Origin: Gemmobacter fulvus
GTDB lineage: Bacteria; Pseudomonadota; Alphaproteobacteria; Rhodobacterales; Rhodobacteraceae
NCBI RefSeq assembly: GCF_018798885.1
Contig: NZ_CP076361.1
Location: forward strand, 434,001-498,000
Direction: 5' to 3'
Length of the DNA: 64,000 nucleotides
Shown: positions 3,854 through 23,467 of the stretch, piece by piece
How positions within the stretch are numbered: the first letter of the stretch is position 1
How the letters are laid out: each line of letters begins with the position of its first letter
Notes under the pieces: model-generated
Seen by the model: only the letters and a program-made list of their open reading frames with translations
What the model was told of the DNA's origin: nothing
Database searches by the model: none
Position numbers and translations under genes: made by a program

Positions 3854-6126
3854 TCAGAGCCCGATGGGCAGCACACGAAACGGACCATGCCCGAAGCTGG
3901 TCGATATCTGCGCCACGGCAATCGCTATGCCATCCGGCGCCCCATCCTCGGCCATCATCGCCGCGCTGTAGTGCCAGACCGGGGTCGAGACCGTGATCTC
4001 GCGCAGAATGGTCGCATCGCGCATAACGCGGACCAGATACTGTTCGCGCTCCTCGCCCAGTGGCACATCCGCACCTTCCCAACTGTCACCGTCGATCCGG
4101 GTGCGGCGGATCCAGCCGAAGCGGAGGCCGTCGCCTTCGGGCTGCATACGCAGATGGGCGGGCGCATAGGGCCGAAGGCCGACACCGGCAAAGGCGCGCA
4201 CCCGATGCACCACCGCCGGATCATCATAGCCCCGCGAGGCAAGACCCACGCGATAGTGCCGGTCCAGCCCGCGCGCCGAGGGCGCAAGCTCAAGCGGCAC
4301 AAGGGTTCTGTCCAGCAGCACGATCTGGCTGCCGATCGGCCATTCCAGTGGCTGGACGCCATCGGTGCCCAACTGGCCGCGCAGGCGCAGCGACAGCTCG
4401 TAGGTGGAAGGTCCGACCAGCGTGGCGGTGACAAACTGGAACACTTCCCAGACACCCATCACCGGATCACCGATGGCCAGCGCATTCGCCCCATTCAGCA
4501 CCGCAGCCTGCGAGGCGGAGGACAACTGGCCTGCCGTCATGCGCACCCGCAGCGGTGCCCCCCTGTCCCACAGGCCCGGTGCCACCGCTGCCAGCACTGT
4601 CTCTGTCCGCCCGACGGTGGCAGAGGCGGCAACAAGCTTGTTGAACACATATCCCGCATCCTCGGAGGCGGCCCAGACCGCAACCGTCCGGGCCAGGGCT
4701 TTGCCGCAACCGCGATATGCGGCGCATGGGGCGCTTCGTCGCCGGTCATCAACGGCAGATCCAGAAACACCGGATAGACCGGCAGCGGCGCAATGAAACT
4801 GCGAGGGGCGATGCGTTCTTCCTCATATTCGCTGGGGCGATAGATGCCCGCCTCGGTGCGGACCGCATCAACCAGCAAAGCCTCGGCCTGCTCCACCCTG
4901 TCGATGCGATAACGCTGGCCCGCATGATCAACCACATCGCCCGCCCCCAGATGGCAAAGCGAACGCGGCAGCGCGAACCGCGCCGTGTCGCGGGCGATCC
5001 GCGCTTCGGCCAGCCAGCGTTCGGCAATCGACATGCCCTCGGCGGTGGTCAGCACCAGCGGCAGATCGGATTGCGATACGCCCGGCACGGCATCACCGGG
5101 AAATTGCGCCTCGGCCTGCCGCAGCGCAAAATCGCCCTCGGCTTCGATATGGCCAATCAGCACCCGCCCGGCCATTTCCGCCTCGGCAGTCCGCGAGGTC
5201 TCGAACGCGCCGCTCAGTTCGTTGGACAGAGCGAGCATGTCATCGGTGATCCGGGCCGTAACCTGCCCGTCGCGCATCCTGAACTGCAAAACACCGTCAC
5301 GGTCCACCGCCTCGAACCCATAGGCCAGCATCAAGGCCTGCAATGCCGCGCGCGCCGTGCCGAGATCTGAGATGTGATAGCCGCGCACCACCCCATGCAG
5401 GGCCGATACATCAAAGCTGTGCAGCCCGGCCCGGTCGCAGAGCTCGGCCACAACTGCGGCCAGCGTCTGACCGCTCGCCCGGCCAGACAGCCAGTGCCCC
5501 CGGGCATAATTGTCGCCATCGGCCCAGACAGAAACCGTGTTGGGAAAGGCCGGAAATGGCCGGGCATCCCAGGCCCAGACATGCGCGCGCGCCATGTCAA
5601 TCATCCGCCCGTCATACAGGGCAGAGGCCGGGTTGTGGCGCGCATCACTCCAATATTCCCGCATGGCCCGCAGATATTGCATCTGCATCAGATCATCGCG
5701 CCGCCCGCTGGAAAACTTGGGCAAGACCGATTCCGACGATTTGGGATCGAGGAACTTGTTCGGCTGATTGGCGCCTTTGTCGATGGCGGCACAGCCATAT
5801 TCGGTAAAGCGCACAGGTTTGGAGCCGGGCACCCAAGCGGTCGCCACAGCAGAGCGCACCCCGCCAATCCGATCATGGTGCAGTTCCGACCACCAGGACC
5901 GGATATCCTTGTAACGAAACACCCAGGGCTCGCCATGGGCACCATCCTCGATGGGTTTGCGGCGTTGCAGGATTTCGGCCTCGGCACTGTCGTAATACCA
6001 GTCGAAGCCTTCGCCGCCCGCCACATTGGCCTTCAGATAGTCGAGGTTGTAAAGGCTGCCCCATGCGGCATCGGCATGGCTTTCCCCATCGCGCCAATCG
6101 GCCAGCGGCATGTAATTGTCGATGCC
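3854..6126 (-). pseudogene. GTA g15 megatron (host-specificity/baseplate) protein, C-terminal part, separated by insertion and frameshifted
   Basis: This is the C-terminal part (about 757 codons) of the very large RcGTA gp15-type protein that forms the tail tip. It resumes exactly at the 13-bp repeat (6114-6126), where the frame reads GIDNYMPLADW; the preceding half is at 21835-23467. The two halves sum to about 1300 residues, close to the usual length. A second lesion lies at about 4686-4692: the frame ending ...KPWPG shifts by one missing base before TVAVWAASEDAG, so the reading passes to the frame that ends at 3854. An isolated ATG-start ORF (6111-4537) covers the first part and another (4648-3854) the second. 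Whether the frameshift is biological or a sequencing error cannot be decided here. Confidence 0.9.
6114..6126. repeat. attL: 13-bp direct repeat at left end of integrative element
   Basis: The sequence AATTGTCGATGCC occurs here and again at 21835-21847, exactly where the two halves of g15 meet the foreign DNA. On the coding strand it reads GGCATCGACAATT (Gly-Ile-Asp-Asn). This is the expected core of a tyrosine-recombinase attachment site. The adjacent bases differ on both sides, so 13 bp is the full identity. Confidence 0.9.
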
Positions 6127-6323
6127 CAGTCAAATCGAGGCCAGATAGCACTTAAAGTGTTGTTTTATTAGTGTTTTTCGGCTTGCCATTTTGTCAGCCA
6201 GACCCGAGAAACTCAATTGAGACCCTAAATCGACAGAAATCCATTCTTCAGCTTCTTCAATGGTTTAGGTTTGCAGTCCTCCCTAGCACAATCAGGTGAA
6301 GTTCCCTTTGTGCAGGTAACAAC

Positions 6324-7043
6324 GTGCTACCCACCCTAGAAAGCATCGTGCCCGGTCTCGAAGGGGTAGAAAGCCTCAGCGAGTTTGCTGAGAAGTTTGT
6401 CAGCCTTGTTCCTTCCCGCACTTCTCAGAGGTTGGCCCTGCCGCTAGCACTTTTGGCCCGAGATGCAATTGGGAAGAAGTGGAGCGACTTGGCAACACGG
6501 CAGTCCGTTCGACGCACCCAAAGGCTTAAGATGGTGCGTGACGAAAAGAGGGCGCAGCAGGAATTACTGGAGCTTAACCGCCAGGCAGCAGCAAAAGAAC
6601 GCGAACGTCAGCGGGGGCGAGAAACCTCACGCCAACTACTTTCAACCCCCGAAGGCCGAGCAAAACACGTGGCGGCCACACGGAAGCACCACAAGGCCAA
6701 CCCCCATCGCCAGATAGCGAACAAGTTGCGGGTTCGGGTTGGCGACGCCTTGAAGAACGATGGGGCACGGAAAGGCGCGAAAACCATGGAGCTAGTCGGC
6801 TGCACGATAGAGCATCTTATGGCCCACCTGGAACGCCAGTTTCAGCCTGGCATGAGCTGGGCCAACCAAGGCTTGTGGCACATCGATCACGTTCGCCCCT
6901 GTGCATCGTTCGACCTGACGTGTCCCGATGCCCAGCGAGAGTGCTTCAATTGGAAGAACTTACAGCCCTTATGGGCCGCCGACAACTTGACCAAAAGTGA
7001 CAGACTGGACTGGACTAGTCGGGTCAACATTCCCCAAAGGTGA
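6324..7043 (+). CDS. HNH-endonuclease-like protein
   Basis: A 239-aa basic protein. The N-terminal half is helical and rich in Arg/Lys/Gln (about residues 60-150). The C-terminal part (about 165-235) has the pattern WHIDHVRPC ... FNWKNLQPLWAADNLTKSD, which resembles the HNH fold found in phage and intron endonucleases: His-Asp-His near the first strand and the Asn-Leu-Gln-Pro-Leu block before the final Asn/Lys. The start is GTG at 6324 with AGGT upstream. It is the only plus-strand gene in the left third of the element and converges on the HEPN gene (stops 1 bp apart). It could be a mobility endonuclease or a nuclease effector; the motif supports a nuclease, not a specific role. Confidence 0.6.
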   Translation: MLPTLESIVPGLEGVESLSEFAEKFVSLVPSRTSQRLALPLALLARDAIGKKWSDLATRQSVRRTQRLKMVRDEKRAQQELLELNRQAAAKERERQRGRETSRQLLSTPEGRAKHVAATRKHHKANPHRQIANKLRVRVGDALKNDGARKGAKTMELVGCTIEHLMAHLERQFQPGMSWANQGLWHIDHVRPCASFDLTCPDAQRECFNWKNLQPLWAADNLTKSDRLDWTSRVNIPQR

Positions 7044-7044
7044 A

Positions 7045-7632
7045 CTATACTGTCACCGCAAAAATCGCCCTTGCAACACGCTCAACTAAATCAAACGTAT
7101 ACTCGACCTGAGCGCGGTCAATAGGCCATCTCTGATTTGGATATGATGGGTCAATATCTGCTTCATGTGCAATTTTGTTCCGCCGATCAACAATAAGACC
7201 AAAGTTAGTCTTCAATGTCTTGGCATCCACACCAACACTTGCACCTACCTCAACCCACAACGAAACTGGACTAAACAATCGAACCGCGTCAGCCACTTTA
7301 TCAGGTTGCTGAAATGAAACATACCCATGTCGGCTGCGTATCTCCGCTTCCAGAGTAGCCGGAGTTACACCAATCATCACACCAATAGGGATTGGAAACT
7401 TATTAAAGGCATCAGTTCGATTTCTAATGGCGCCATAACACTCCAGCATACCAAGACGAGTGAGCTCATGAATAAAAAAATCAAAGGCGCTTACCGCCAT
7501 TACAATCTCTGATCTCAATATATCAGACAAATCAACGGCCGCAGTAAGTTGAGCTGACAAAGAAGCATGTAACCCATGAAGCTCCCTTGCCCTAACCATT
7601 GCCTGCTCGAAAGCGTCAAGTGCCTGCTGCAT
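7045..7632 (-). CDS. HEPN-domain protein (RiboL-PSP-HEPN type), candidate RNase effector
   Basis: A 195-aa protein, all helical by composition. Near the C-terminus (about residues 150-157) it has RRNKIAHE, an intact Rx4H motif (R151, H156) typical of HEPN RNases of the RiboL-PSP/MAE-type family. The start codon lies inside the last codons of the ParA-like gene (17-bp overlap), so the two are translationally coupled. HEPN proteins often act as RNase toxins in defence or abortive infection. The role here is inferred from the motif and the coupling to a P-loop ATPase and a reverse transcriptase. The DNA is clearly more AT-rich than the flanking chromosome. Confidence 0.65.
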   Translation of the reverse strand: MQQALDAFEQAMVRARELHGLHASLSAQLTAAVDLSDILRSEIVMAVSAFDFFIHELTRLGMLECYGAIRNRTDAFNKFPIPIGVMIGVTPATLEAEIRSRHGYVSFQQPDKVADAVRLFSPVSLWVEVGASVGVDAKTLKTNFGLIVDRRNKIAHEADIDPSYPNQRWPIDRAQVEYTFDLVERVARAIFAVTV

Positions 7633-8674
7633 TCAGCACCGCAATCACTTTGTCAGCACATTCATCGAACAAACGCAAAAAATCCTCTTGGGAACCTTGG
7701 GTGTTTTCCAAAACTTTGCCAACCTGCTTTAGTTGGTCTGGAGTTAGTTCAAAAATTGGAACTTGATGCTCTTGAGAAAACGCAATAAGTGAGTTGAAGT
7801 CGGGCATCTGCAGAATTGGAATAGATGGATCAATATTTGCCGCTGCATAAATTTCCTGAGGCAACAATAAGCCAGATTTGCTAAGGACGGGCAGAAGAGT
7901 GTCCCTCACATTACTTTCGAGCTGGTCAATCCAAGACTGAAACGCTCGTGATGGCGCCTTTGCTCTCGGCCGATACTTCTGAACGACGTAGCCGATGAAC
8001 TTAGTGCTCACGTCTGGAAAGGGGTAAGCGGCATCCTTAAGAGCTGTCGTACTAGCAGCCGCATCAGCCCAAGACTTCCACTTGGGAATAACATTTGCGA
8101 GTGATTTGACCGCCATATTGGAAAAATAATCAGGGTGCATTGGTATGATAAAGAAATCACTAATAGACAACAAATTCTGATTTAGAGCACCCAAGCTTGG
8201 ACTCATGTCAACAATAGCAATATCTATATTGTTCTCAGCGGCAGTCATTTTAAGAAGGTGATTTATGGCTCCTGGCAAGTTCCTAAGCGTAACAACTGAC
8301 CCAGATAGCTCCTGCGAAATACCAAGTGTGACTTCATATTCAGCTAAACCGATATTGCCCGGTAGCAAAAATAGGTTGTCGTTCTTGGGGATACTGACAA
8401 GGCGAACAGGGACAATAGGACTGGGCCGCGACTCAAAAGCAGGCACCAAGCCCTCTTTAATATTGAGAGGAACGCCTGCGTCCATTCCTTGTATGCTATC
8501 GCTTGTCTCAAGATCCTCAAGGCCAAGAACCATACCCGTCAAATTACATTGCGGATCACAATCGACAAGCATCACTCGCTTACCCTTTCGGGCAAGCATC
8601 CATCCAAGATTAAACGCTGTGGTCGTTTTGCTTACGCCGCCCTTGTGGTTGAAAAGGCTAAGAACCGCCACCAT
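7616..8674 (-). CDS. ParA-like deviant-Walker ATPase
   Basis: A 352-aa MinD/ParA-family ATPase. The deviant Walker A motif KGGVSKTT is at residues 11-18, switch I/Walker A' VDCDPQ is near residue 38, and switch II (VDMSPSLG) is near residue 156. No ParB-like partner or centromere-binding protein is adjacent; the gene is instead coupled to a HEPN gene by a 17-bp overlap. ATG at 8674 follows GGGAG. Lone ParA homologs beside HEPN genes may act as the regulatory or sensor half of a defence or toxin pair, but a partition role for the excised element cannot be excluded. Low-GC, foreign-looking DNA. Confidence 0.8.
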   Translation of the reverse strand: MVAVLSLFNHKGGVSKTTTAFNLGWMLARKGKRVMLVDCDPQCNLTGMVLGLEDLETSDSIQGMDAGVPLNIKEGLVPAFESRPSPIVPVRLVSIPKNDNLFLLPGNIGLAEYEVTLGISQELSGSVVTLRNLPGAINHLLKMTAAENNIDIAIVDMSPSLGALNQNLLSISDFFIIPMHPDYFSNMAVKSLANVIPKWKSWADAAASTTALKDAAYPFPDVSTKFIGYVVQKYRPRAKAPSRAFQSWIDQLESNVRDTLLPVLSKSGLLLPQEIYAAANIDPSIPILQMPDFNSLIAFSQEHQVPIFELTPDQLKQVGKVLENTQGSQEDFLRLFDECADKVIAVLNAAGT

Positions 8675-8688
8675 CGTAGTCTCCCATG

Positions 8689-8809
8689 CTTTGCCTTAAC
8701 ACTACTTTGCCTTGCTCTGCTAAGCTAGTGAAATATCGAGATGATTTCCTTGGCGCACAACAAGCAGTCAGGTGCTCGGACAGCTTTTTGCTTAAGCATG
8801 TCAGGTGCT
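8689..8809. promoter_or_regulatory. Two sets of direct repeats upstream of the ParA-like gene
   Basis: The 185-bp gap between the RT stop and the ParA start holds CTTTGCCTT twice (8689-8697 and 8705-8713, 16 bp apart) and GTCAGGTGCT twice (8767-8776 and 8800-8809, 33 bp apart). Each copy of the second set is flanked by AAGCA/TGCT so that it is partly self-complementary. The position fits operators for ParA autoregulation, or a partition-like site; which is not known. Confidence 0.45.
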
Positions 8810-8859
8810 TAGTCACCGAGACCACCCGGCAGGACTCGACCAGGGCCAAAACGATGTGC

Positions 8860-9768
8860 CTAGTTGGCGTAGCGTTGCAGCGCATCCCGTTCAGCGGCCA
8901 TGATTTCAGCCTTGGGGCGCCACGTTGGATCGACTTGGCTTGCCTCAAACAGGCGCCCGGTTAGCCGCCTTGCGACGAACAGCTTCTCGCGACCATTTGG
9001 CAGGGCATCAAAGTTTGCGAAGTCATCTGCAATCCCCTTCTGCCGCTTGTTCGGCAGCTTCATGCCTTCTTTGGTGACAGCAACCCCTGTGATGATCCTG
9101 GGCTGGCCAGGGCGGAACAGCTTGGTCTTGTGACCGTGCAGCCGATAGGACGAAAAGATCTTCCTTGCTGCATACAGGAGCCCCCTGGTCGCACCTATGC
9201 CAGTGAACACAACATCATCAACGTAGACAGTAATCACGCAACCCTTTGTGGCCGCCAGCTTGGCCAAAGCGTCGAACATGTCCTCGTAGGCAAAGTAGGA
9301 AAGGATCGGGCTGGAGCTGCTGCCAGTTGGCAAGTGACCATCTACGGTGAGCAACTTGGTCAGAATGCCAGAGACGTCTCCCGAGCAAAGCATTCGATCC
9401 AGAAAGAAGTGGTGGACTGCCTGCGATCGGACGGAGGGGTAAAACTTCCGCACATCGATCTTCACGCAGCCCGCATCCACAGAATGCCCGCTAGCGTTGG
9501 TGATGTATGACCTCCCCCTGATTGCAGAATGCAGGTAATCTGGGGTGTCAATTTTGGCCAGAAGCAAGGCTACGCGCTTGTGCACCTTGTCCAGCTTCGG
9601 CTTGGGTTCTTGGATCGGCCGACCGGTTTTCTTGTCGGTCCATCTCTTGTAGTTGTCCGTTGCTGCGCAAAGCTCGTTCAGCTCATCGAGCGTTACCCGC
9701 AACCGGTCCGCCAGCATTTGGGGACTGGTGATCTTGTAGAAAATGGACTGGTTGCGGGGGTAGCTCAT
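8860..9768 (-). CDS. Retron-type reverse transcriptase
   Basis: A 302-aa protein with the RT palm motifs in order: N-terminal YKITSPQMLADRL start, the H...IRGRSYITNASGH block (residues 80-95), KIDVRKFYPSV with catalytic D105, HLPTGSSSSP (145-154), YVDD (182-185), HGHKTKLF (211-218) and the VTG-like ITGVAV (226-231). The short length, the absence of maturase or endonuclease domains, and the N-A-x-x-H and ITG blocks place it with retron RTs rather than group II introns. Unusual details are YVDD instead of the usual YADD and a serine run in place of QGAPTSP. Start and XRE stop overlap as ATGA. It probably makes DNA from a co-encoded RNA, but that RNA is not certain here. Confidence 0.85.
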   Translation of the reverse strand: MSYPRNQSIFYKITSPQMLADRLRVTLDELNELCAATDNYKRWTDKKTGRPIQEPKPKLDKVHKRVALLLAKIDTPDYLHSAIRGRSYITNASGHSVDAGCVKIDVRKFYPSVRSQAVHHFFLDRMLCSGDVSGILTKLLTVDGHLPTGSSSSPILSYFAYEDMFDALAKLAATKGCVITVYVDDVVFTGIGATRGLLYAARKIFSSYRLHGHKTKLFRPGQPRIITGVAVTKEGMKLPNKRQKGIADDFANFDALPNGREKLFVARRLTGRLFEASQVDPTWRPKAEIMAAERDALQRYAN

Positions 9769-10073
9769 CGCTCAGACCCTCTGTAATCCGAAATTGTCGC
9801 CACCCAGTCCAGCATCTTCACTGCCTTGTCGGCGACGAACACCCTTACATTTTCGGCCTTCCCCGCCCCTTCCACCTTCTCGGCGAACAAAAGCAAGGAG
9901 GACATGGGAATGTCGAAGGCGTCGGAATACTTCTGAAGCGTGGCCATTGAGACGTTCTTGTCGCCCTTCTCGATTTCAGACACGTAGGATTTTGAAAGGC
10001 CCAAGCGCTCAGCGGCATCGACCTGTGACAGGTCATGATAGACCCTCACAAGGCGCAGGGCTTTGTTCAGCAT
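9765..10073 (-). CDS. XRE-family HTH regulator coupled to the RT
   Basis: A 102-aa protein with an N-terminal Cro/C1-type helix-turn-helix (about residues 5-58: VDAAERLGLSKSYVSEIEKG) and a short alpha-helical tail. The start at 10073 is chosen because GGAGGGAG lies 6 bp upstream; an upstream ATG at 10097 lacks a site. The stop overlaps the RT start by 4 bp (ATGA), so both are translated together. It could be the operon repressor, or the accessory HTH protein known in one class of retrons. Confidence 0.85.
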   Translation of the reverse strand: MLNKALRLVRVYHDLSQVDAAERLGLSKSYVSEIEKGDKNVSMATLQKYSDAFDIPMSSLLLFAEKVEGAGKAENVRVFVADKAVKMLDWVATISDYRGSER

Positions 10074-10097
10074 TTTCTCCCTCCAAACAATGAACAC

Positions 10098-10253
10098 CTA
10101 GGGGCCGTCGAAGAAGAACCGCGCCAGTTTCGCGATGGCATTTACCATCCAAAACGCGGCCAAGAGTATCGACCTGTTCCGAAGAACACGCCGATACCAA
10201 CGACGGACCCGTTGCCCGGTGTTCAGGGGCTTCTTGGGATCATTGGTTCCCAT
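10098..10253 (-). CDS. Small single-pass membrane protein heading the RT operon
   Basis: A 51-aa protein: a basic N-terminal half (RVRRWYRRVLRNR) followed by one hydrophobic helix (about residues 29-47). The ATG at 10253 has AGGAGG 8 bp upstream. It ends 25 bp before the XRE start. A longer in-frame reading to 10400 has no ribosome site and would run through the hairpins. Function unknown; small membrane proteins occur as effectors in several defence systems, but here that is only position-based inference. Confidence 0.6.
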   Translation of the reverse strand: MGTNDPKKPLNTGQRVRRWYRRVLRNRSILLAAFWMVNAIAKLARFFFDGP

Positions 10254-10719
10254 TTCAGCATCCTCCTGGGCATCACCACCGGACAACCCGATGGCTGTGC
10301 GCCGACCCCAAGAGGCAAAGTGGGCAAACGGTAACCCCCAGGTATCCCCGTGCCGCAACGTGCGCTGCGGCCTTAAGTCGGAAGTCGTCGCCGATCGCAT
10401 CGCTCGCGCGCGATCGCCGCTGCCCCCAAAGTGGGTAGAGACCGAAGCCTCCTCGACTGGTGAACCAGTCAGCCTGTGGCGCTATCCATCGCCTGAACAC
10501 TGTAGCCTAGATAGCAGATTCGGTCGCCAACGCAAGAAGAAAGTTCGCCTGTAGCGATTTCAGTCCGCTCATTCGATCACTTAACCACAAAATGTCGTAG
10601 CTCGGTTTGGCGTGAATGTCAGGATCACACGTTGTCTAGCCCGAAAGTGAATGAATATCAGGGCGTTAGCGCCCCGCTCAGACCCGTAGGCTCAATATGG
10701 GCTGACCGACAAGCGAAAA
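10254..10719. other. 465-bp non-coding leader of the RT operon
   Basis: No supported gene in this stretch. It holds the candidate RNA described at 10330-10505, the putative promoter around 10505-10535, and a GGGCG-CTAA-CGCCC hairpin at about 10660-10674 next to the terminator at 10720. Open frames across it have no ribosome sites and run through the hairpins. Confidence 0.6.
10330..10505 (-). ncRNA. Candidate structured RNA upstream of the RT operon
   Basis: Reading the minus strand from about 10505, three inverted repeats follow one another: GACTGG-TTCA-CCAGTC (10456-10471), a 7-bp CGATCGC/GCGATCG stem (about 10391-10415), and GCCGCA/TGCGGC (about 10352-10371). A possible promoter lies upstream (CTTGCG, 17 bp, TATCTA, near 10505-10535). 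A short CGATGG near the 5' end can pair with CCATCG near 10290. A retron msr-msd RNA would be expected near the RT, and this is the best candidate I see, but the outer pairing is only 6 bp and no branch-site sequence is convincing. Confidence 0.3.
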
Positions 10720-10738
10720 GGCCCGCCGAAGCGGGCCT
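10719..10738 (-). terminator. Rho-independent terminator after the small-gene pair 11296-10746
   Basis: On the minus strand an 8-bp GC stem (AGGCCCGC/GCGGGCCT) with a TTCG-type loop is followed by TTTTCG, 7 bp after the stop at 10746. It separates the small-gene block from the RT operon. Confidence 0.85.
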
Positions 10739-10745
10739 CTGATTG

Positions 10746-10958
10746 TCATTCGGCTGCTATGGGCCATCGCCGCTTTGGCTCTCTTGTCGTCATGACCTCC
10801 CGCAGGGAAGTCATGGTGGCCATTTCTTCCCGCAAGGCTTCTTCGAACCTTGCCCGCTTGGCCTGTCCAGCCAATGCCCTCGCCCGTCTCTTTGCAGTTT
10901 CGGACAGGGGTTCCTTCGGCCGATCCACCCTGTTCAGCAAAAGGTAGGGCAGCCTCAT
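10746..10958 (-). CDS. Small basic hypothetical protein of the element
   Basis: A 70-aa protein rich in Arg and Ala (ETAKRRARALAGQAKRARFEEALREEM), probably one long helix. The start overlaps the preceding gene's stop as ATGA (10955-10958). It is followed by a terminator. No recognised domain; a nucleic-acid-binding or packaging role is possible but unsupported. Confidence 0.6.
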   Translation of the reverse strand: MRLPYLLLNRVDRPKEPLSETAKRRARALAGQAKRARFEEALREEMATMTSLREVMTTREPKRRWPIAAE

Positions 10959-11296
10959 TCAGCAGCCTTGGCTTTGCGACGGTGGGGAACGTCCACGCCC
11001 GTTTTCCGCAGGCGGGCAGCGATGGACGCAACCGACCTTGCAGACGTGGAGGCATTGTCAAACTGGGCATGGATCAGGTTGACGATCATGTCGTAGGAAA
11101 GGGTCACGTCCATGACCAACTCAGCAACCACGCTGCCGATGGTCTCTTTCTTCTCGGCCTTCGGTTCAGGCGTGGCTTCCACTTTCTCGGTCGGGGTGGC
11201 CGCTTCGGTCAGCACCTGATCTGCATCTTGGTCAGGATCAGCGCCCGCGAGGACAGCAGACACAGCGTTCTCAAAGGTTTTCTTGGTCATGGTCAT
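10955..11296 (-). CDS. Hypothetical protein of the element
   Basis: A 113-aa protein with an acidic, Pro/Glu-rich middle (about residues 20-50) and a C-terminal helical part ending in a basic tail (AARLRKTGVDVPHRRKAKAAE). First gene of a two-gene unit with the 70-aa ORF. The second half (SYDMIVNLIHAQFDNASTSARSVASIAARLRKTG) reads like a short winged-helix or HTH segment, but I cannot name a family. Confidence 0.6.
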   Translation of the reverse strand: MTMTKKTFENAVSAVLAGADPDQDADQVLTEAATPTEKVEATPEPKAEKKETIGSVVAELVMDVTLSYDMIVNLIHAQFDNASTSARSVASIAARLRKTGVDVPHRRKAKAAE

Positions 11297-11551
11297 GGTC
11301 AGTCTCCAGGTTCCACCAGGCCACAGCGACCTGATAGAGCTATCCTGTCGCGTGGGCAGAACCTCGAACGCCCCCTAACCCACCGTTCCCGCTCACTAAA
11401 TGCTTCGACTTTCAGGCGCTCGGATCGGGCTGCCTGATAGTGCCAGGTGCACGGCCACCGAAAGCCCTGGTAACCAGGACACGAAGCCGGGGGATGATCC
11501 GGGTCGGGCCGATGTGCCGGTTCGGACAGCTTGCCACTATCAAGAACGAAG
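11297..11551. other. 255-bp non-coding stretch within the element
   Basis: I see no convincing gene. A minus-strand open frame at 11299-11562 lacks a ribosome site and reads through the terminator hairpin. The stretch probably holds the promoter for the 113-aa gene. Confidence 0.5.
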
Positions 11552-11581
11552 AAGACCGGCACCCTGTGAGACGCCGGTCTT
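11552..11581 (-). terminator. Hairpin after the 59-aa gene
   Basis: A perfect 9-bp inverted repeat (AAGACCGGC/GCCGGTCTT, 12-nt loop) lies 22 bp past the stop at 11603. The tail on the minus strand is only moderately T-rich (TCTTCTTCG), so it is a probable rather than a certain terminator. Confidence 0.6.
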
Positions 11582-11602
11582 TGGGATCATAGCCGGGGAA
11601 GC

Positions 11603-11782
11603 CTAGTGCTTGCGCAACCCCTGCTTGCAGATAACGCTGGCAACCACGCGCTCATTCTTGAAGCCGCTGAGGTCAGCATACCGTTTACAGTCAGCCTGGG
11701 GCTCCAACTTCATCCAGAACCGCAGGCGCTCGGTGCAGGTCTTGAAACGGGCGTTGATGATGTCGATTTGATCCTGGCTCAT
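11603..11782 (-). CDS. 59-aa hypothetical protein coupled to the 98-aa gene
   Basis: Begins MSQDQIDIINARFK and ends KQGLRKH. Start and upstream stop overlap as ATGA (11779-11782), which argues it is translated. The region CTERLRFWMKLEPQADCKRYADLSGF is strongly charged and helical. It is short and easily missed by automated gene calls. Function unknown. Confidence 0.55.
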   Translation of the reverse strand: MSQDQIDIINARFKTCTERLRFWMKLEPQADCKRYADLSGFKNERVVASVICKQGLRKH

Positions 11783-13337: not shown

Positions 13338-13351
13338 GGTGGATTGTCCTT

Positions 13352-15638: not shown

Positions 15639-15870
15639 CGCTCGCGTCCAATGTGATGTTGATGTCCCCTAAGGCTTCTGTGAGGGTGCGCAAATACATG
15701 GCGATTTCATCACCCGCCGCTGCGTTCACATAGGCTGCAATAAGAGTGGCGCGGGCAGCCGGTGGGTATTCGGGAAACCACTCCTCCACAAAGGTCTTGG
15801 CTTCCAGAATCCAGGTGTTGGCAGTCATTCCGGCCTGCTTCATCAGAAGATTGGTTTCAGGTATTATCAT
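15628..15870 (-). CDS. 80-aa hypothetical protein
   Basis: Starts MIIPETNLLMKQAGMTANTWI; acidic and helical (FVEEWFPEYPPAARATLIAAYVNAAAGDEIAMYLRTLTEALGDI). It overlaps the TerS-like gene 2 start by 11 bp and forms its operon head after the origin-like repeats. No recognised domain. Confidence 0.6.
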   Translation of the reverse strand: MIIPETNLLMKQAGMTANTWILEAKTFVEEWFPEYPPAARATLIAAYVNAAAGDEIAMYLRTLTEALGDINITLDASDGL

Positions 15871-16481
15871 TTATCTCGGACTCCATTTTTCCAATGGACT
15901 TGGCCATTCCAAGCCATGCCGATAAAATGACGCTCAATGCTGAAAATTGACACCGTCATTTCTAGCGGCAATCCTCCAATAACCCATAGCTGCCAATTGC
16001 TGAGGCCAAGTCAAGACTCCCAGTCTAAACACTGATCTGACCGATCCGGCCTAAATCGACTCGGTCTTATAATCGTTTTTGTATTTACCACTTATTGCCT
16101 TATGACTTAAGCGAGTAATTCGCTTATTTTATTATTTAAGACTTATGATTTATGCCAGATCAGTCAGATCAAAAAGCCAATAGGACAACTGGGAAAATCA
16201 TCCTTTTCGGACTGATCCGGCTGATCTGACCTGTTTTCAGAGGGTCACGATTTTGCACCCCGCAACTTCAGGCCAGATCAGCCAGATCGGCCACCCGCTC
16301 GCTCGGCCCTTGCCGTCCCCTTGCTTTCTAGTCGGATCAGCCAGATCAGCGGGCCCCGCCATACGCAGCGCCGCGTCACCCCTTGGTTTTCGGCCAGATC
16401 AGCCGGATCAACGGGAAGCAAGAAAAAGGCAGGACCGAAGCCCTGCCCTACGCGATCTCCGCCAATCAGCCAGCCAGCCTG
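15871..16481. other. 611-bp intergenic region with origin-like iterons and AT-rich segment
   Basis: No gene supported. It contains the iteron array described at 16031-16412 and, at about 16050-16160, an AT-rich stretch including a TAAGCGA-gtaat-TCGCTTA inverted repeat (16108-16126). The layout is that of a replication origin beside its primase/helicase gene. Confidence 0.8.
16031..16412. repeat. Iteron array (candidate replication origin)
   Basis: A core related to GATCAGCCRGATC occurs at 16158-16170, 16276-16288, 16335-16347 and 16397-16409 in one orientation, and inverted at 16034-16046 and 16214-16226. Consecutive cores from 16158 lie 56, 62, 59 and 62 bp apart, close to six helical turns; the first copy is two such steps away. 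Every copy carries two GATC sites 5 bp apart. The array is next to the replicase gene and an AT-rich segment, which fits an origin bound by that replicase. Confidence 0.8.
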
Positions 16482-19019
16482 TCAGTCAAACGGCCCTTTC
16501 CAGGCAAGACCACGGATCGAAGGCACCTGTTCGCCGTTGATCCGAGGCTTGGTGGTCACCACGTCCGGGTAGTTGTCATAGAGTTGGCTGAAGAAGTGGT
16601 CGTAGTGGACAGCTACCGTGGTGCTGAACCCTTCCAGCCACGTTTCGAAAGCCATGAAGACCTCATCCTTTGGAAGCACGCTGTTCGCATCCACCACCAT
16701 CTGGTCTTCGACAAAGGTCTTCGTGGGCATCGTCCTGACCCGCACATTCTTGAACAGGGGTGCCGCCGACCTTGGCTGGACAAACGACCCACGCTTCTTG
16801 AGGCGGTCCAGCCCGTCCAGCGCCCAGTTCAGAATGCCCGCCATTTCTGCCTTGAGCTTCATCGGCAGGAGCTTGTCTTCACGCCCAAGATAGGAGTTGG
16901 GATATTGCAGCAGCAGCATACGACCAGCCACAGCCCCAGCGCTATCATTGAACCGGGGCAACAGATTGGATGCAAACACAAGGCGAGCGGGCAGCACCTT
17001 GTCCACCACCTTCTCATTCTTGCGATTGACGGGCACCTTATCGCCACCAACGATCTTGAGGATTTGGCTGACCAGGCGGCTCATGGTCTTGGTGTTCGAG
17101 TTACGAAAATCCCCGAACGTAATGACCTGGGCGTCTTCATACAGTTCCAGCCCGAAAGTATCGGTGAAGCTGTCTTCCTCCGCCCCCTTGCAGTTGCCAT
17201 CACCCAGCAGCATGGAAAGGGTCGTCAGCAGCGTGCTTTTTCCCGACCTAGTGGGCCCCATCACATATAGAAACTTCTGCTGGGAAATGTCCTGGGTCAG
17301 GCAATACCCCAGATACTCTTGAAGAAGCTCGATTGCCTCGGTGTCACGGACGCCAACGTTGGGCCCTTGCTCCGGGGTGAACCACTGGTCAACAGCCCGA
17401 AGCCAGGTCGGGCAAGTTGCATCGGCGTCATAGTGGACAGCCGAGACGTTCACGTTGACGAACATGGGAGTGGCGGGAAGCAATCGACGGGTGGGCAGGT
17501 GCAGAAGGCCATTGCTGACGGGCATCAAAACCGAGGGCAACGGCAGAGTGGCGCTGCCCGAGTAGTTCCATGCAGGCAACTCTTTCGGTCCTGCACTGTG
17601 CGCCATTGCAGCCTTTTTGACGTTCGTCACCAAGGCAGCGTTTTCCTCGATGATCTTCAAACCAGTGCCGGCGATGTATTTGCGCCCGTGAAGAAACTTC
17701 CAGATTTCGCCTTCGATGTGTTCATCGCCAGGAGGGAGCACAGCGTAGCAGCCCTTCTGCTTGTCGTATTCAAGCCAGCGGCCTTGAACCCGCAGCAGCT
17801 TGTAGGGCTGGGCATTCAGAAAAGCCTGGGCCAAAACGGTGATATTCTTGCTGGCGAGAGGGGCTTCCTGATCTGCGTTCCCAGAGAACACGTCGTTGGC
17901 GATCATCTTGTCCAACTCGGACGTTTCAAAGTCCAGCAGAGCAAAGTCACTGGCAGCCCGGACCTTCACAATCCAGGCTTCAACGTCCGCCTTGTGACCC
18001 GGCAGGCAGTATTGCAGCGCGAGCTTGGCCAAGGTGCCGAAGGTTACGGGGGTGCCGTCATACTGGCCGAACCCACACCAACGGTCCTGGATTTCTGCAT
18101 CAGCATCAACCCAGCCTTCAAGTTCGGCCAGCACATCAATGTCACCACTGGCAGCGAAGTGGGCGGCCATCAGGAACATCACCCAGTCCAGATAGTCGCC
18201 ATGTCCCGAGGGGATGGACACCCACGGCAGCAGTTCGGCAATCTGTCCGGCATCGATCCTCGTCCGGGCATCTTCCCTGGAGCCATCTGTGGCCCTCCGG
18301 GCGCGCTCGGACCAGTCCTGGTTAGTTCGGCTACGCCCGATACGCTCCGAGAGCCCAGGAGCCAATTCTGGAAGCGCCTTGAAGTCTCCGAAGGCATCCT
18401 GCACGGCCACGTAATGCCGCCCCGTATCGGGATGAATTGAACCGGGCGCCACAACCTGACGGCCAAGCGATTTGTATTCGATGCCCGGATATTCGGGCAG
18501 GCTGTCCTTGACCGAAAGCGTGGCGGGCTTGGCCATGTAGATGTGATACCCACCGCTCCCAGTTTCCACCCTCGGATAGTCTGCCAGGTCCATGCTGCAA
18601 TCGTCCAACAGGCGTTCGAGCGGGTTGCCCTTGGAGGTCAAGGTGTGCTCGACCCAACTGGCGCCCATTAGGGCTTTGGTGGCAGCGGTCGGTTTGCCGT
18701 TCTTGTCCAGCGTGGCTTTGATTTCCGCCTCTTTCAGGCGTTCCTTGGCCTCGTCGGTCAGACCAAAGTTGCGGGGATCAACGTCAACAACAAGCTGGGT
18801 TGCCGTAAGACGGACACCCAGGTTGCGGCCATGCTTTTCAGCTTCGGCCAGGACCTCAGCATTGCTGTAGAGCTTGGTGGTCCATTTGTTGTCGAGCGGG
18901 CGTTTTCCAGCCTGCTTCCTCTTGCCCTTGACGGATACCATTGCATCATATCGATGAAGTGGGATCAGAGAAAAGCCCGCATCGGACACAATACGGCTGT
19001 CATCATAATTCGGTTTCAT
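16482..19019 (-). CDS. Prim-Pol/SF3 helicase replicase (P4-alpha-like)
   Basis: An 845-aa protein. The N-terminus is an archaeo-eukaryotic-type Prim-Pol domain (DVD at 79-81, GSGGYHIY at 154-161, APGSIHPDTGRHY at 191-203). The C-terminal part is an SF3 helicase (D5/P4 type): Walker A GPTRSGKST at 588-596, a Walker B-like VITFGDF near 650, and downstream motifs to the end. It initiates and unwinds replication of the excised element, probably at the iterons. A primase-helicase of this type is a standard replicase of P4-like and PICI-like satellites. It starts 6 bp after the 104-aa gene. Confidence 0.9.
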   Translation of the reverse strand: MKPNYDDSRIVSDAGFSLIPLHRYDAMVSVKGKRKQAGKRPLDNKWTTKLYSNAEVLAEAEKHGRNLGVRLTATQLVVDVDPRNFGLTDEAKERLKEAEIKATLDKNGKPTAATKALMGASWVEHTLTSKGNPLERLLDDCSMDLADYPRVETGSGGYHIYMAKPATLSVKDSLPEYPGIEYKSLGRQVVAPGSIHPDTGRHYVAVQDAFGDFKALPELAPGLSERIGRSRTNQDWSERARRATDGSREDARTRIDAGQIAELLPWVSIPSGHGDYLDWVMFLMAAHFAASGDIDVLAELEGWVDADAEIQDRWCGFGQYDGTPVTFGTLAKLALQYCLPGHKADVEAWIVKVRAASDFALLDFETSELDKMIANDVFSGNADQEAPLASKNITVLAQAFLNAQPYKLLRVQGRWLEYDKQKGCYAVLPPGDEHIEGEIWKFLHGRKYIAGTGLKIIEENAALVTNVKKAAMAHSAGPKELPAWNYSGSATLPLPSVLMPVSNGLLHLPTRRLLPATPMFVNVNVSAVHYDADATCPTWLRAVDQWFTPEQGPNVGVRDTEAIELLQEYLGYCLTQDISQQKFLYVMGPTRSGKSTLLTTLSMLLGDGNCKGAEEDSFTDTFGLELYEDAQVITFGDFRNSNTKTMSRLVSQILKIVGGDKVPVNRKNEKVVDKVLPARLVFASNLLPRFNDSAGAVAGRMLLLQYPNSYLGREDKLLPMKLKAEMAGILNWALDGLDRLKKRGSFVQPRSAAPLFKNVRVRTMPTKTFVEDQMVVDANSVLPKDEVFMAFETWLEGFSTTVAVHYDHFFSQLYDNYPDVVTTKPRINGEQVPSIRGLAWKGPFD

Positions 19020-19025
19020 TGCTGA

Positions 19026-19340
19026 TTACTCCCCGGCGCCGGGAAGTGCAGCTTTGTCAGCCACGAGCTTGTCAAGTGCCACCAAGGCGGCCGGGCGATG
19101 TGCCACCAGCCATTCCTTGAATTGCTCAACGGGTGTGTAGTTGCGGGAAAGCCGGATCGTGCGGCCTGTGAAGGCAACGACGTCTGCCGGATGGCGAGTG
19201 CCAATCGGCATGTTCAGATTGCGACGATTGTGGCGCAACGTGGTGTGGGTAACACCCAGCACGACAGAGATTTCCTCGTCGGTGAGGTGGGTTTGGTAAA
19301 ACGATGGCGTAAAGACAGCGCCACTGATGCTATTATCCAT
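19026..19340 (-). CDS. 104-aa HTH-like hypothetical protein
   Basis: Start at 19340 (MDNSISGAVF) is chosen because AGGAG lies 8 bp upstream; an earlier in-frame start at 19385 lacks a site. Residues about 20-45 (HLTDEEISVVLGVTHTTLRHNRRNLNMP) resemble a helix-turn-helix. It is followed within 6 bp by the replicase gene, so it is likely a regulator or accessory factor for replication. Family not identified. Confidence 0.6.
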   Translation of the reverse strand: MDNSISGAVFTPSFYQTHLTDEEISVVLGVTHTTLRHNRRNLNMPIGTRHPADVVAFTGRTIRLSRNYTPVEQFKEWLVAHRPAALVALDKLVADKAALPGAGE

Positions 19341-19498
19341 AGCATGTGCTCCTATGTCAGAGTGGGATTTGCACTGTCTATACAAGGGCGTTGGGACTGG
19401 TCGGGTCCTGACGCCCTAAATCGTTTCGTAGCGTCAGCTTACACTGACAGGCCACCTCCCTTAAACCAACAAACGCAGCCTTTAGCCGAACACTGGCC

Positions 19499-19927
19499 TC
19501 ACATCATGGCACGTTCAAATTCAGCGTCGCTGATGGGTCGAGGACGGCGCTTCTCGGAAACGAGCACAAGGCCCAGGGCGTCGGGCATGATGTAGCTGTC
19601 GGGGTATGGATGCGGCCACTGCCCCTTCTCAACTTCCTTTTCGAGCTTGGCCAGCAGGTAGCGCTCAAAGGCAGCTTGGCCTGGCCGCCGCAGCAAGCGC
19701 ATCAGCATGAGAACCTGGTCACAGCTATAGGTCCTCGGACGGGGTTTGATGTGCTGGGTGTCAAGCCCGCGATCATCGATGATGGTTGCCCGGTCCAGCT
19801 TGTCCTTGGTGATACCAAGCACGCTCGCAATCTTGGTCGCCCGAACAAGTGTGCTGGGCATATCGGACGCGAACGAGCGAGGTCGAATTGCCGGTTTCCA
19901 AGTGACCGGCACGAGCATATATTCCAT
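19499..19927 (-). CDS. 142-aa hypothetical protein, first gene of the replication block
   Basis: Start at 19927 (MEYMLVPVTWKPA) with AGGAGG 10 bp upstream; a longer frame to 19984 has no site. Contains an HTH-like segment (TLVRATKIASVLGITKDKLDRATII, about residues 25-50) and SCDQVLMLMRLLRRPGQ. It ends 158 bp before the 104-aa gene start and may be a replication regulator. Not assigned to a family. Confidence 0.6.
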   Translation of the reverse strand: MEYMLVPVTWKPAIRPRSFASDMPSTLVRATKIASVLGITKDKLDRATIIDDRGLDTQHIKPRPRTYSCDQVLMLMRLLRRPGQAAFERYLLAKLEKEVEKGQWPHPYPDSYIMPDALGLVLVSEKRRPRPISDAEFERAMM

Positions 19928-20228
19928 GATGTAGCTGCCTCCTATGGCGCTGCGTTTCGTTGAGACTGACCTAGCAATCAGCATCTTCTATGTGGCCATC
20001 GGGTTCCCGCCCGGTGGCCACGACTCACTTTGCCACACTGGTCAAACCCCCGACAACCAACACTTGCAGCCCCAAACGACGGTTCGGTGCCCAGGCACCT
20101 TGCGACAGTGTGTCGGCATGTGCCGAAGACCCTGTTTGCTGAGCGGATTGGCCCAGGCGATCGCATAGAAAAGCCCCCGAGAGCGTTGTGGCTCACGGGG
20201 GCTTTTTGCTTTGTGGACGGTGGGTCGA
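19928..20228. other. 301-bp regulatory gap upstream of the replication block
   Basis: Contains the int-xis terminator (20169-20206) and, closer to the 142-aa gene, a GTGGCCA/TGGCCAC inverted repeat (19992-19998, 20015-20021) with a GC-rich inner stem that has no T-tract and may be an operator or leader hairpin. No gene is supported. Confidence 0.6.
20169..20206 (-). terminator. Rho-independent terminator after the excisionase
   Basis: An 11-bp stem (AAAAGCCCCCG/CGGGGGCTTTT) with T-runs on both strands lies 23 bp past the excisionase stop and can work in both directions. Confidence 0.9.
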
Positions 20229-20465
20229 TCAGGCGAGAGGTTTCTGGCGCCGGGCTTCCATCCATTCCCGAAGATCAGCCACAGCATACATCACCTTGCG
20301 CCCTACGCGAACGAAGGCAGGGCCGGTTGCCTGTGATCGCCACACCTCAAGTGTGTTCGGCTGCAAACCCAGGAATGAGGCAGCAGCATCGTTGTCGAGA
20401 TACTCACGGGCACCCTGGGCAAGCATGGCTTCGATCCTGTCCAGCCGCTCTATGATTTCCTGCAT
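20229..20465 (-). CDS. AlpA/excisionase-type DNA-binding protein
   Basis: A 78-aa protein. Residues 20-70 (REYLDNDAAASFLGLQPNTLEVWRSQATGPAFVRVGRKVMYAVADLREWMEARR) form the winged-helix/MerR-like excisionase fold, with the typical GRKVMY wing and DLREWM helix. The ATG follows AAAGGA. It lies directly downstream of int on the same strand. It is expected to steer the integrase toward excision; AlpA relatives can also activate transcription. Confidence 0.75.
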   Translation of the reverse strand: MQEIIERLDRIEAMLAQGAREYLDNDAAASFLGLQPNTLEVWRSQATGPAFVRVGRKVMYAVADLREWMEARRQKPLA

Positions 20466-20525
20466 TGTCTTTTCCTTTCAGTATCATAGAGCGATTATGG
20501 AGGCATGGAGGGACGGGGCAAACCC

Positions 20526-21674
20526 TCAAACTGGGACGGGCTTGCCCCTGAACGAAAGCAGCTTCTCTGCCACCTTTTCCTGGCACTCACGAAGGTGGCC
20601 AGTCAGGTGAGCACGGGTCACATACCGAAAAGAGACGGTAGGGTTGCTGTGATCCAAAAGCAGGGTGACGGACTGGAAGTCTAGGCCACACTCGAAGGCC
20701 CACGTCCTATAGTTGTGGCGAAGGGCATGAGGCTGATACGGAAAGCCACGGTCTGACCTGAGCACTGACACATGGCCCGAGCGGGTGGTGGTGGCCGGGA
20801 ACATGAAGGGCGAGGCCAGGGGCTTGGTGTAGGCACGGAGCGCCTCCAATTCCTGGATCAGGAACCGAGGCAGCGGGCACTTGAAGACCCGCCCTGCCTT
20901 GGTGCGGGGCACGGTCAACACCCCATCTTCATCAAGCCAATCCCATCGGGCAGTGCGGGCGTTGCCAGACCGAAGCCCCGTAAAGAGCATCAGCATGAAG
21001 CAGCCTCGCGCCACCTGATCGTCCAGGGTGTCGAGCGATCGCCAAAGGGCGGGCATCTGTTCAGCGCTGACAGCCCAGTTACGGCTTTCCTCTTTGTTGA
21101 ACCTCACGGCCAGCGACACGGGGTTGGGCGGAAGGTCATGGTCCCGCATCGTGTCATTGTAGAGAAGGCGAAGCATCCTGAGGCTGGTATTGGCAGCATA
21201 TGGCCCATTCTTGCGGGTCATTTTCTCGTGCAAGTTCCTGCAAAGCGCCCTGTCGATCGAAGACATTGGCAGCTTCATGATGGACCTGAACGGGCCTTCG
21301 GTGTGCCTGCGGTAGTCAGCGAGCGTGGAGGGCTGGAGGTCATTCTTCCTTGCTTCCAGGTATCGGTCCAGGGCTTGCTGGACGGTGGGCACTGCGGACT
21401 TGGGGCGCCTTGGATCATCCCCACGGGCAAGAGCTTGCCGAAGCTCAATGGCCTTCTGCCTAGCAGTCTTGAGGGACATTTCCTCCACCCTGCCAATAGT
21501 CAGGGTGACGTAAAGCCCGCTGCCATCGTTGATGCGGCCCACGAGCTTCCAAGACGATGATTTCGAGCCCACGACAATGCGAAGGCCCGAGACTTCTTCA
21601 TCATAAATCAGGGTGCCAGGGGGGCTTGTCTCAGCCAAGTTGGTAGCCAGTGATTGCGTGAGTTTGGTTGCCAA
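20526..21674 (-). CDS. Tyrosine integrase of the element
   Basis: A 382-aa site-specific recombinase of the P4-integrase type. It has a short N-terminal arm-binding region (about 20-60), a core-binding domain (95-195) and a catalytic domain with R235 (GLRSG), H316/R319 (HALRH), H342 (LLDHS) and Y351, all present. The start is TTG at 21674, preferred because GGAGG lies 7 bp upstream. It is 160 bp inside the right attachment repeat, as expected for an integrase next to attR. It most likely recombines the 13-bp repeats, inserting the element into g15. Confidence 0.93.
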   Translation of the reverse strand: MATKLTQSLATNLAETSPPGTLIYDEEVSGLRIVVGSKSSSWKLVGRINDGSGLYVTLTIGRVEEMSLKTARQKAIELRQALARGDDPRRPKSAVPTVQQALDRYLEARKNDLQPSTLADYRRHTEGPFRSIMKLPMSSIDRALCRNLHEKMTRKNGPYAANTSLRMLRLLYNDTMRDHDLPPNPVSLAVRFNKEESRNWAVSAEQMPALWRSLDTLDDQVARGCFMLMLFTGLRSGNARTARWDWLDEDGVLTVPRTKAGRVFKCPLPRFLIQELEALRAYTKPLASPFMFPATTTRSGHVSVLRSDRGFPYQPHALRHNYRTWAFECGLDFQSVTLLLDHSNPTVSFRYVTRAHLTGHLRECQEKVAEKLLSFRGKPVPV

Positions 21675-21763
21675 TATTCATCCTCCAGTTGTGAAACGAG
21701 ACCGAGTTTCAGACCCTATGCAAAGCACAGCTAGACAAAGCTCGATCAGGCTAGATGAAGGGA

Positions 21764-23467
21764 TTATGACCTGAAAACAGGGACTTGGGGACCATGATTA
21801 GAGCGGGTAAAGCTCAGCAAAACGGACGACAAGCAATTGTCGATGCCGACAAAGTCGATGTCGGGGTCAGCCCAGAGTGGGTCCAGATGGAAATACACAT
21901 TGCCATCCGCATGATAGCCGAAATACTCGGACCAATCGGCGGCATAGCTGATCTTGACCTCGGGCCCAAGGATCGCGCGCACCTCGGTCAGCAATTGCCG
22001 CAACGCCGCCACTGCCGGAAAGCTGTCGCCAGCGCCGCGGATCTGCGTCAAGGCCCGCATTTCCGAGCCGATGCAGAAGGCGTCAACGCCACCCGCTGCG
22101 GCGCAAAGATGCGCGTAATGCAGGATGAACCGGCGATAGCGCCAGTCTTCCGGGCCGGAATAGCTGATCTGCCCCGCCTCGACGGTGAAATCCCCGGGCT
22201 GTGCCGTGCCGAAAAACGCCGCGACCTCGGCGGCGGCCGCCGCCGTGCGATCCGTGCTGTCCGCCTGCCCCGGCGCCGCATCCAGCGTGATGCGCCCGCG
22301 CCAAGGCAAGACCGGCTGATCCGGCGCGCCTGTCCAAGGGTCCGGCAGGTCATTGCCCGCCAGTTGTTCCATCAGGATGAACGGATAGAACATCACCTCT
22401 TGCCCCGCAGCCCGCAGCGCCGTGATGGCCTCGATCACCGAGGCATCCGCCGGGGTGCCGCCATAGACAGATTTGCCTTCGACGCGCGCCACTTCCTCGG
22501 CGGCATCGCGCCCGATGCCGCCCGCCCGCCAGATCATGCCTTTGCCTTCCAGCGCGCGCTGTTCGACCTTCGGTTTGACCTGACAACTGCCACAGCGCAG
22601 ATCGTCACCGAACCACGACACCACCAGCGACACTGATCCGCAATGCGGCAGTTCTTCGCGCAATTGTTCCAGTGCTGTAGAGAAATCCGGCTTTCCTGAC
22701 GGAGAGTTCACATTGGCAGAGCGCACAGCCGCATCGCCTTCGGAATAATGCACCGGAGTCGTCGCCAGCGCATATTCCCCCGTGCCGGGGATCAGCGCCA
22801 CGGCACGGACAGCGCGTTGCAGATCGGTCATCGCATCGGCCGCCGGGCTTTGCGCGGGGCGGATCACCTCGAATGACAGTTGCGGTACCCGATTTCCGAA
22901 AGGGGCCAGATCCAGATCCTCGATCACCACATAGGCAATTCCGCGATAGGCGGGGGCCAAACCCGCCCCCTCCACCGCCTCGATCTTCGGATCTGGCAGT
23001 TGGTCGTCATCACCATGATAGACCCGCAGATTGACCGAGCTTGGCGCGATTTCCACCCCATCGGCCCAGATCCGCCCAACACTGGCAATCCGCCCCGCAC
23101 AAAGCGCGACCGCAAGGCTGACGGAATAGGAATAGGTCGTGGTGCGCGGGCTTGGCGCGCCTTTGCCGCCGCCCGTGCTGGCCGCCGTTTCCATGAACCG
23201 CGTGGCCCAGATCACCTGCCCCGCCACACGGATCCTGCCAAACACCTGCGCCACTGCCGCCCCTTCCGAGGCGCCCATCAGGCGGAACCGCTCTACCCGG
23301 CCAATCTCCACCGCATCGGATCCGGCACCGATCAGCTTCTGGTCGATGATCCGGCCCAGGGTGGCCCCGGCGGCCCGCCCGATGACAGCCCCCGACAGGC
23401 CAAGGATCGTGCCGCCAAAGCCCGATCCGATGGCGGCTCCGGCCGCAGACAGCAGTATCGTCGCCAT
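21764..23467 (-). pseudogene. GTA g15 megatron, N-terminal part, interrupted by the element
   Basis: The native part runs from ATG at 23467, right after g14's stop, to 21835 (about 544 codons). It is a typical GTA gp15 start (MATILLSAAGAAIGSGFGG, then a Gly/Ala-rich membrane-like segment) and leads into the beta-rich tail-tip domains with DIDFVGIDN. After the 13-bp repeat the frame continues 24 codons into the element and stops at 21764. The remainder of the gene is at 3854-6126. The tail-tip protein is needed for GTA attachment in R. capsulatus, so the split should abolish functional particles unless the element excises. Confidence 0.93.
21835..21847. repeat. attR: 13-bp direct repeat at right end of integrative element
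   Basis: Identical to the repeat at 6114-6126 (AATTGTCGATGCC). It lies inside g15, 160 bp from the integrase start. Joining the flanks through one copy restores GIDNYMPLADW in frame. Confidence 0.9.

Follow-up and report, generated by a model that had tools for sequence, protein, structure and literature searches.

The closest described counterparts of the locus considered here are the HE-PICIs, phage satellites that, according to Tommasini et al. (2023; PMC10111431), occupy 14 sites distributed over cognates of nine lambda late genes. A second related case is that of pneumococcal prophages, which the excerpt of PMC12637031 used here describes as inserting in the DNA-uptake genes comYC and ssbB. 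We have analyzed a stretch of 64,000 nucleotides from Gemmobacter fulvus (contig NZ_CP076361.1, positions 434,001 to 498,000; this whole stretch is referred to as the window), in which a 15.7-kb element lies within g15, the megatron (baseplate) gene of a gene transfer agent (GTA) cluster. We consider it fairly probable that this element belongs to a satellite-like lineage of the Rhodobacterales with megatron-gene tropism, able to embed itself in a helper phage or in a GTA in the manner of the HE-PICIs. The megatron gene is common to true phages and to the GTA, which is a domesticated prophage, and the element could thus embed in either; it probably exploits a weak point common to phages and tamed gene-transfer particles. 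Our searches, which covered open-access PMC papers, turned up no account of a satellite or other integrative element lying in a GTA gene, as judged from titles, abstract openings and passages of the papers cited here, and the text of PMC10111431 contains no mention of "gene transfer agent" or, as a whole word, "GTA".

Several features of the HE-PICIs, as set out in that paper, recur here. The satellite lies within a phage late gene and disrupts it, as does a relative of our element on viral contigs of IMG/VR; in the window, it is a GTA that is interrupted. The integrase, helix-turn-helix (HTH) regulator and primase genes run in the direction of the late gene, and they do so in the window, in genome G393 and in the IMG/VR relative. 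The block of identity between attachment sites is short (10 bp in the HE-PICIs and 13 bp here), the interrupted gene is given no replacement coding sequence, and integrase subclades follow the sites. The far end of the HE-PICI 11capE also carries HEPN and DUF262 genes (L115, 18537-20253), a position similar to that of the defence-type cargo of the window element. The differences are that 11capE has a capsid gene, whereas the window element has none; that the window integrase is very distant from the 11capE integrase, the one HE-PICI integrase in our tree; that the window regulator matched HTH_17 and no AlpA family; and that the target here is the megatron gene or g15, the interrupted locus a GTA and the host a member of the Rhodobacterales. 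The comYC and ssbB prophages are alike in that a site-specific insertion shuts off a host DNA-exchange function. They block DNA uptake by their carrier, whereas the window element should block particle production.

The attachment site within g15

The original prediction, made by a reader of the letters alone, had placed the element precisely inside g15 at a 13-bp repeat, and the repeat proved to be exact. The element is bounded by direct copies of AATTGTCGATGCC at 6114-6126 (the distal, attL-type attachment site) and 21835-21847 (the integrase-side, attR-type site), 15,721 bp apart, and the window contains no further copy of the 13-mer on either strand. When the flanks are joined at the repeat, they give ...DFVGIDNYMPLADW..., the same as the uninterrupted g15 of relatives, and GIDN|YMPLADW is rejoined. 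The 5' part of g15 (21764-23467, minus strand) contains about 544 g15 codons up to GIDN, followed by only 23 element-encoded residues that are unlike g15 and do not replace the missing coding sequence. The 3' part, from YMPLADW (3854-6113, minus strand), is split into two frames by a frameshift: the first frame is lost near 4680 and another continues to 3854. This could be either a true mutation or an assembly error. The predicted restoration of the g15 frame by excision consequently holds locally at the site, but would not yield a full-length g15 in this assembly.

Eight base pairs, ATCGACAA in the sense of g15, are common to all eight attL and attR sequences compared, and they sit within the imperfect palindrome GGCATCGACAATTACATGCC. 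The 21-bp attB is matched at 19-21 of 21 positions in eight g15 genes from elsewhere in the genus, at 20 and 21 positions in two divergent paralogues, and at 15-18 positions in eight phages. The G+C fraction, taken in 1-kb steps, is 0.458-0.616 at 7001-21000 versus 0.617-0.694 in the flanks (1-6000 and 22001-41000).

The host locus is an otherwise complete RcGTA-type cluster on the minus strand, in which Pfam identified terminase, portal, prohead protease, capsid, tail tube, DUF2460, hub and NlpC/P60 genes. The order is that of RcGTA, with terminase, portal, protease, capsid, a short tape measure protein (TMP) and baseplate genes; the individual gene numbers are assigned from gene order. The rest of the cluster, g14 to g1, occupies 23468-33660 (minus strand). 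Thirteen of its proteins (g2-g14 without g8) have one match each in the four genomes compared, G298, G393, G012 and G295, while g1, which was called from coordinates alone, was matched in G298 only. GTA genes are described as widely conserved across the Rhodobacterales in the abstract of PMC9836097, and the g15 open frame is 1295-1299 amino acids long in six of ten other genus members. G305 and G306, of the same genus, have shorter g15 frames, G304 has several frame changes, and in G299 (L057, G299:C19, 4484-7975) a deletion in the GTA cluster joins the portal gene to the C-terminal part of g15.

In a published domain map, seen in excerpt, the g15 product is divided into peripheral (230-744), central (745-984) and fibre-binding (985-1304) domains (PMC7296036). 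A product cut at about residue 544 would be without the central and fibre-binding domains, and so without the domain that attaches to the tail, and should not form a working baseplate. The earlier proposal that the integrated element turns GTA production off thus follows from the map.

Related insertions and the integrase lineage

The search of other Rhodobacteraceae for insertions at the same codon, which had been suggested along with the original prediction, yielded G393, G012 and a remnant in G295. An insertion in the megatron gene of a (pro)phage was found in addition, on viral contigs. Searching genome contigs with the integrase gave two relatives, 98% and 78% identical, both adjoining g15. 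In contig JAPUEK010000001.1 of G296, which was taken to be G393, a 15.4-kb element begins after GIDN and ends before YMPL. It matches 12 of the 14 non-cargo proteins of the window element with their order kept (the replicase in its N-terminal part only). None of the five window cargo proteins was matched in it, and its own cargo (L042, 5301-9137) encodes an AAA-domain protein, a GNAT-domain protein and an HTH-ASCH protein. In G295 (WRPH01000022.1) the integrase and HTH_17 protein alone are left, the g15 sequence picks up again some 38 residues later, and the match to the 5' part of g15 is spread over two frames; from these features the copy is a decayed remnant of the element. In G012 the halves of g15 lie on two contigs, each of which ends in element sequence, with 54 integrase residues that are 80% identical at one end and a distal end that is 77% identical to the window's over 97 bp. 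By eye, this distal end opens with a peptide resembling the start of a cytosine methyltransferase. Both g15 halves are open in G393 and in G012. Chance is excluded by the occurrence of same-codon insertions elsewhere, and the possibility of an assembly chimera, raised with the original prediction, was rejected on the ground that other assemblies, too, have these related integrases joined to g15 at this codon.

A census of the family with a 224-residue g15 query that covers the site gave matches in 328 of 394 genomes. Nineteen genomes were re-examined, comprising those chosen by eye for weak or split matches plus the window's genome and G393, and in three of them (the window, G393 and G012) g15 is broken at precisely this position. 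This number is a lower bound, since in the other genomes the examination covered the primary g15 copy. Rejected as same-site insertions were G013, G184 and G159, which break at query positions 49-58 instead; G320, G343 and G142, with gaps within one open frame; G011, G054, G399 and G289, with one long match; G377, in which g15 runs into unrelated sequence that by eye resembles a transposase; and G176, in which g15 is divergent and shortened. G196, G392, G115 and G318 gave partial g15 matches. An integrase profile passed 1e-70 in six of the 394 family genomes.

The integrase had no match in the phage collection, and a single-protein search of viral contigs also found none, while the profile recovered two contigs from IMG/VR with an integrase 71% identical to the window's. 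These contigs share 11,415 bp with one mismatch and therefore represent one population in two samples. The integrase follows the megatron sequence ...FIGID, at the same codon as in the window. Its flank is not a GTA: the g12-g15-like genes are 42-53% identical to those of the window, a lysozyme is present, and the TMP has 813 residues (phrog_8462) versus 217 for the open reading frame (ORF) taken as GTA g11. Five stretches of the flank have 77-82% nucleotide identity to a prophage of G300 (G300:C5), which has GpA-type terminase, portal, capsid and replication-O genes and an 820-residue TMP, and a prophage of this type is the candidate helper. G300 has three further megatron-type genes of 1335 residues (G300:C5, C4 and C7; L109, L113 and L114), and the one examined belongs to a prophage that combines lambda-type head genes with a GTA-like tail tip. 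In the phage collection, g15-like sequence was found in 63 records.

A tree of 20 rows places the four megatron-site integrases in one clade (support 100/99), within which the three GTA-site integrases group together (99/95). The nearest other integrases found are 54% identical, at tRNA-Leu with a 37-bp repeat, and 49% identical, at tRNA-Asn with a 45-bp repeat in an element of 3.4 kb; a tRNA scan of 30 integrase loci found two tRNA-Thr genes. The integrase has probably switched from tRNA genes to late phage genes, namely to the conserved codon stretch GIDN|YMP of the megatron gene. The tree would allow a passage from phage to GTA sites as well as one from GTA to phage sites. The 11capE integrase lies apart from all 19 other rows, and its branch, of about 3, is so long that its placement is itself unsure, and megatron tropism appears to have arisen apart from the tropism of the HE-PICIs. 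An element in G266 at tRNA-Leu (L031, 6000-20000) has similar integrase, HTH_17, Prim-Pol and TerS-like genes and a HEPN-like protein just under the Pfam cut-off; by gene content it is a tRNA-site branch of the same satellite family.

The Int-Xis end, from attR to the stop codon of the HTH_17 gene, is 95.2% identical in nucleotides between the window and G295, whereas the host genes are 73.1% (g15 flank), 78.2% (cysE) and 81.7% (capsid) identical. The difference between the Int-Xis end and the g15 flank indicates horizontal transfer between host lineages into the same site. Two plasmid records match the integrase (54% identity over 52% of the query in one and 29% over 84% in the other), and the replicase matches 206 phage and 8 plasmid records, none of which covers 80% of it. 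Sequence comparison thus establishes the exact recurrent insertion, the single integrase clade and the horizontal transfer, together with a conserved core gene order in two elements, their differing cargo, and the shared direction of g15 and int. From the parasite's side, the targeting of one codon in both a GTA baseplate gene and a phage gene blurs the line between phage and GTA, and defence genes, a type VI retron among them, have been carried into a GTA locus.

Possible lifestyles of the element

A satellite of this kind may be expected to behave as follows. While it is integrated, the GTA baseplate would not form. Transcription of the late or GTA operon would run through the truncated g15 into int; g15 and int point the same way in the five cases seen, no sigma-70-type promoter was listed by a consensus scan between the truncated g15 and int, and the gap contains weak stem-loops only, formed by the att palindrome itself. 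The integrase and excisionase would then excise the element, the Prim-Pol protein would replicate it from the iterons, and the TerS-like protein would steer it into the capsids of a true helper phage. According to PMC7947584, GTAs package DNA at random. As such packaging is not specific to the element, a true phage is the likelier carrier, and the GTA insertions may be landing pads or traps; the interruption of a (pro)phage megatron gene by the same integrase lineage likewise makes a phage the likelier helper. An element in a GTA could also become stranded there and degenerate together with g15, as in G295 and perhaps in the window. In a more far-reaching version, read-through of the GTA operon into int would lead to excision, restoration of g15 and replication, with GTA and phage, through the conserved codon common to both, as interchangeable helpers of one satellite lineage. 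We hold this version to be doubtful. If it is true, a mobile element controls how much GTA its host puts out. Regulated gene integrity on a GTA becomes amenable to testing at this locus.

Several observations weigh against the satellite reading or narrow its base. The insertion is rare, being found in at least three of 394 family genomes by the g15 census and, by the integrase profile, in one of 385 genomes in a sample of the class, that one being the window's own. G295 and G296 are metagenome-assembled genomes, the integrase match in G012 is limited to the 54 residues at a contig end, and the core protein at 13352-13948 was not found in the G012 genome. The phage-embedded cases come from one population alone, and both IMG/VR contigs end inside the element. 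No helper phage was identified in the window's genome, where g15 sequence was found once. Further out in the family, the best 21-mer matches attB at 15-20 of 21 positions in ten g15 loci, which were picked for weak matches, and one of these is off-site. The tRNA users group with G344 with weak support (82/63), which leaves the switch from tRNA genes no more than probable. The TerS assignment comes from one profile only, and the predicted fold (AlphaFold pLDDT 47.6) is too poor for a fold search.

The alternative that survives best is that the integrase merely targets a common, conserved and dispensable gene as a safe harbour, without regulated excision and without making use of phage or GTA. 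GTA makers lyse, and on this view loss of the GTA would be neutral or good for the lineage. The wide occurrence of g15 in the family and the conservation of attB in the genus agree with this explanation, and the frameshift in the window, the deletion remnant in G295 and the frame change in its 5' g15 fit one-way insertion followed by decay. We nevertheless regard it as unlikely, given that the same integrase clade interrupts a phage megatron gene at the same codon, that g15 and int share a direction wherever they were seen together, that both g15 halves stay open in G393 and G012, and that the element moves between hosts.

Active lysogeny, in which the element would be a switch of benefit to the host and its excision would restore GTA production, seems to us improbable. 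The site is precise, the rest of the GTA cluster is present in the hosts compared, and the open g15 halves would make it possible in G393 and G012. In the window's genome, a reversible switch is made less likely by the frameshift in distal g15; the occurrence of the element is rare and patchy, and an element that is horizontally mobile and carries defence-type cargo resembles a parasite more than a domesticated switch. The least probable of the proposals, also made in the original prediction, is that the element hijacks the GTA and transfers itself in GTA particles through its TerS-like protein: a TerS-like gene and a location in the GTA cluster would suit it, but the insertion breaks the baseplate gene of those same particles, the element at 15.7 kb compares with a GTA cargo of about 5 to 15 kb in the abstract of PMC9632790, no alignment was obtained between the TerS-like protein and the presumed GTA g1 ORF (itself called from coordinates alone), and the described packaging is random, so that we find it very hard to accept.

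Genes of the window element

We translated 31 ORFs of the element and picked 20 proteins for Pfam and PHROGs scans, 10 of which were also examined with PADLOC. The window element has the integrase, regulator and replicase generally expected of a phage satellite and, as originally predicted, no virion genes: none of the 20 proteins gave a convincing match to a virion structural family. The integrase, excisionase and Prim-Pol/SF3 replicase genes named in that prediction were likewise recovered. Except where stated, the genes are on the minus strand and are given in order from the integrase end.

The tyrosine integrase (20526-21674; PF00589, PF13356) is co-directional with g15 and begins about 90 bp past the truncated g15 ORF. 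It is followed by an excisionase-like HTH_17 protein (20229-20465; PF12728; phrog_66, E 1.1e-6) and by two proteins of unknown function. The first of these (19499-19984), which has no Pfam or PHROGs match, is 48% identical to its counterpart in the G296 element; the second, a small protein (19026-19385), is 35% identical in the IMG/VR element and was not found in the G296 element. The replicase (16482-19019) has Prim-Pol and SF3-type helicase matches (PF09250; PF19263, or DUF5906; PF08706, or D5_N; phrog_1156). The predicted iterons were also found, as a cluster that is a putative replication origin: six matches all fall within 16033-16410 where 0.28 were expected, and none of 100 shuffles reached six, with a pattern derived from the repeats themselves.

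TerS-like genes had been predicted, and the two candidates fared differently. After a further unknown protein comes an HTH protein (15318-15638; PF02796, E 1.2e-5) that is only weakly TerS-like (phrog_4044, E 0.036; Sf6_terminase, E 0.012). The next protein (14593-15078) has a firmer TerS match (phrog_4044, E 6.9e-7) and homologues in the G296 and G266 elements. It had no match in the phage collection, and its Linocin_M18 match (E 0.081) was treated as noise. Six small core proteins follow in the same order as in the G296 element, four at 13086-14600 (14280-14600, 13978-14283, 13352-13948 and 13086-13472) and two at 10955-12075 (11779-12075 and 10955-11296).

The remaining genes are cargo, and the type VI retron, the ParA-HEPN pair and the endonuclease-VII-like gene go beyond the gene list of the original prediction. 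The retron consists of an HTH protein (9765-10097; HTH_VI, 115 bits with PADLOC) and a reverse transcriptase (8860-9768; RT_VI, 265 bits with PADLOC; PF00078). Upstream of the HTH gene, a structured stretch of 503 nucleotides (10098-10600, minus strand) is a candidate msr-msd RNA; it has a fold z-score of -4.25, none of 100 shuffles was equally stable, and it had no Rfam match. The strong matches to the reverse transcriptase and HTH models and the structured RNA upstream are as in type VI retrons, with the difference that the retron is here cargo only. A ParA-type ATPase (7616-8674; PF13614; phrog_164) and a HEPN protein whose gene overlaps it (7045-7632; PF18735; phrog_13503) adjoin the retron, and PADLOC gave weak PDC-M28B matches for ParA and none for HEPN. 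The last gene, on the plus strand at 6324-7043, encodes an endonuclease-VII-like protein (phrog_1035, E 7.2e-8; phrog_28061).

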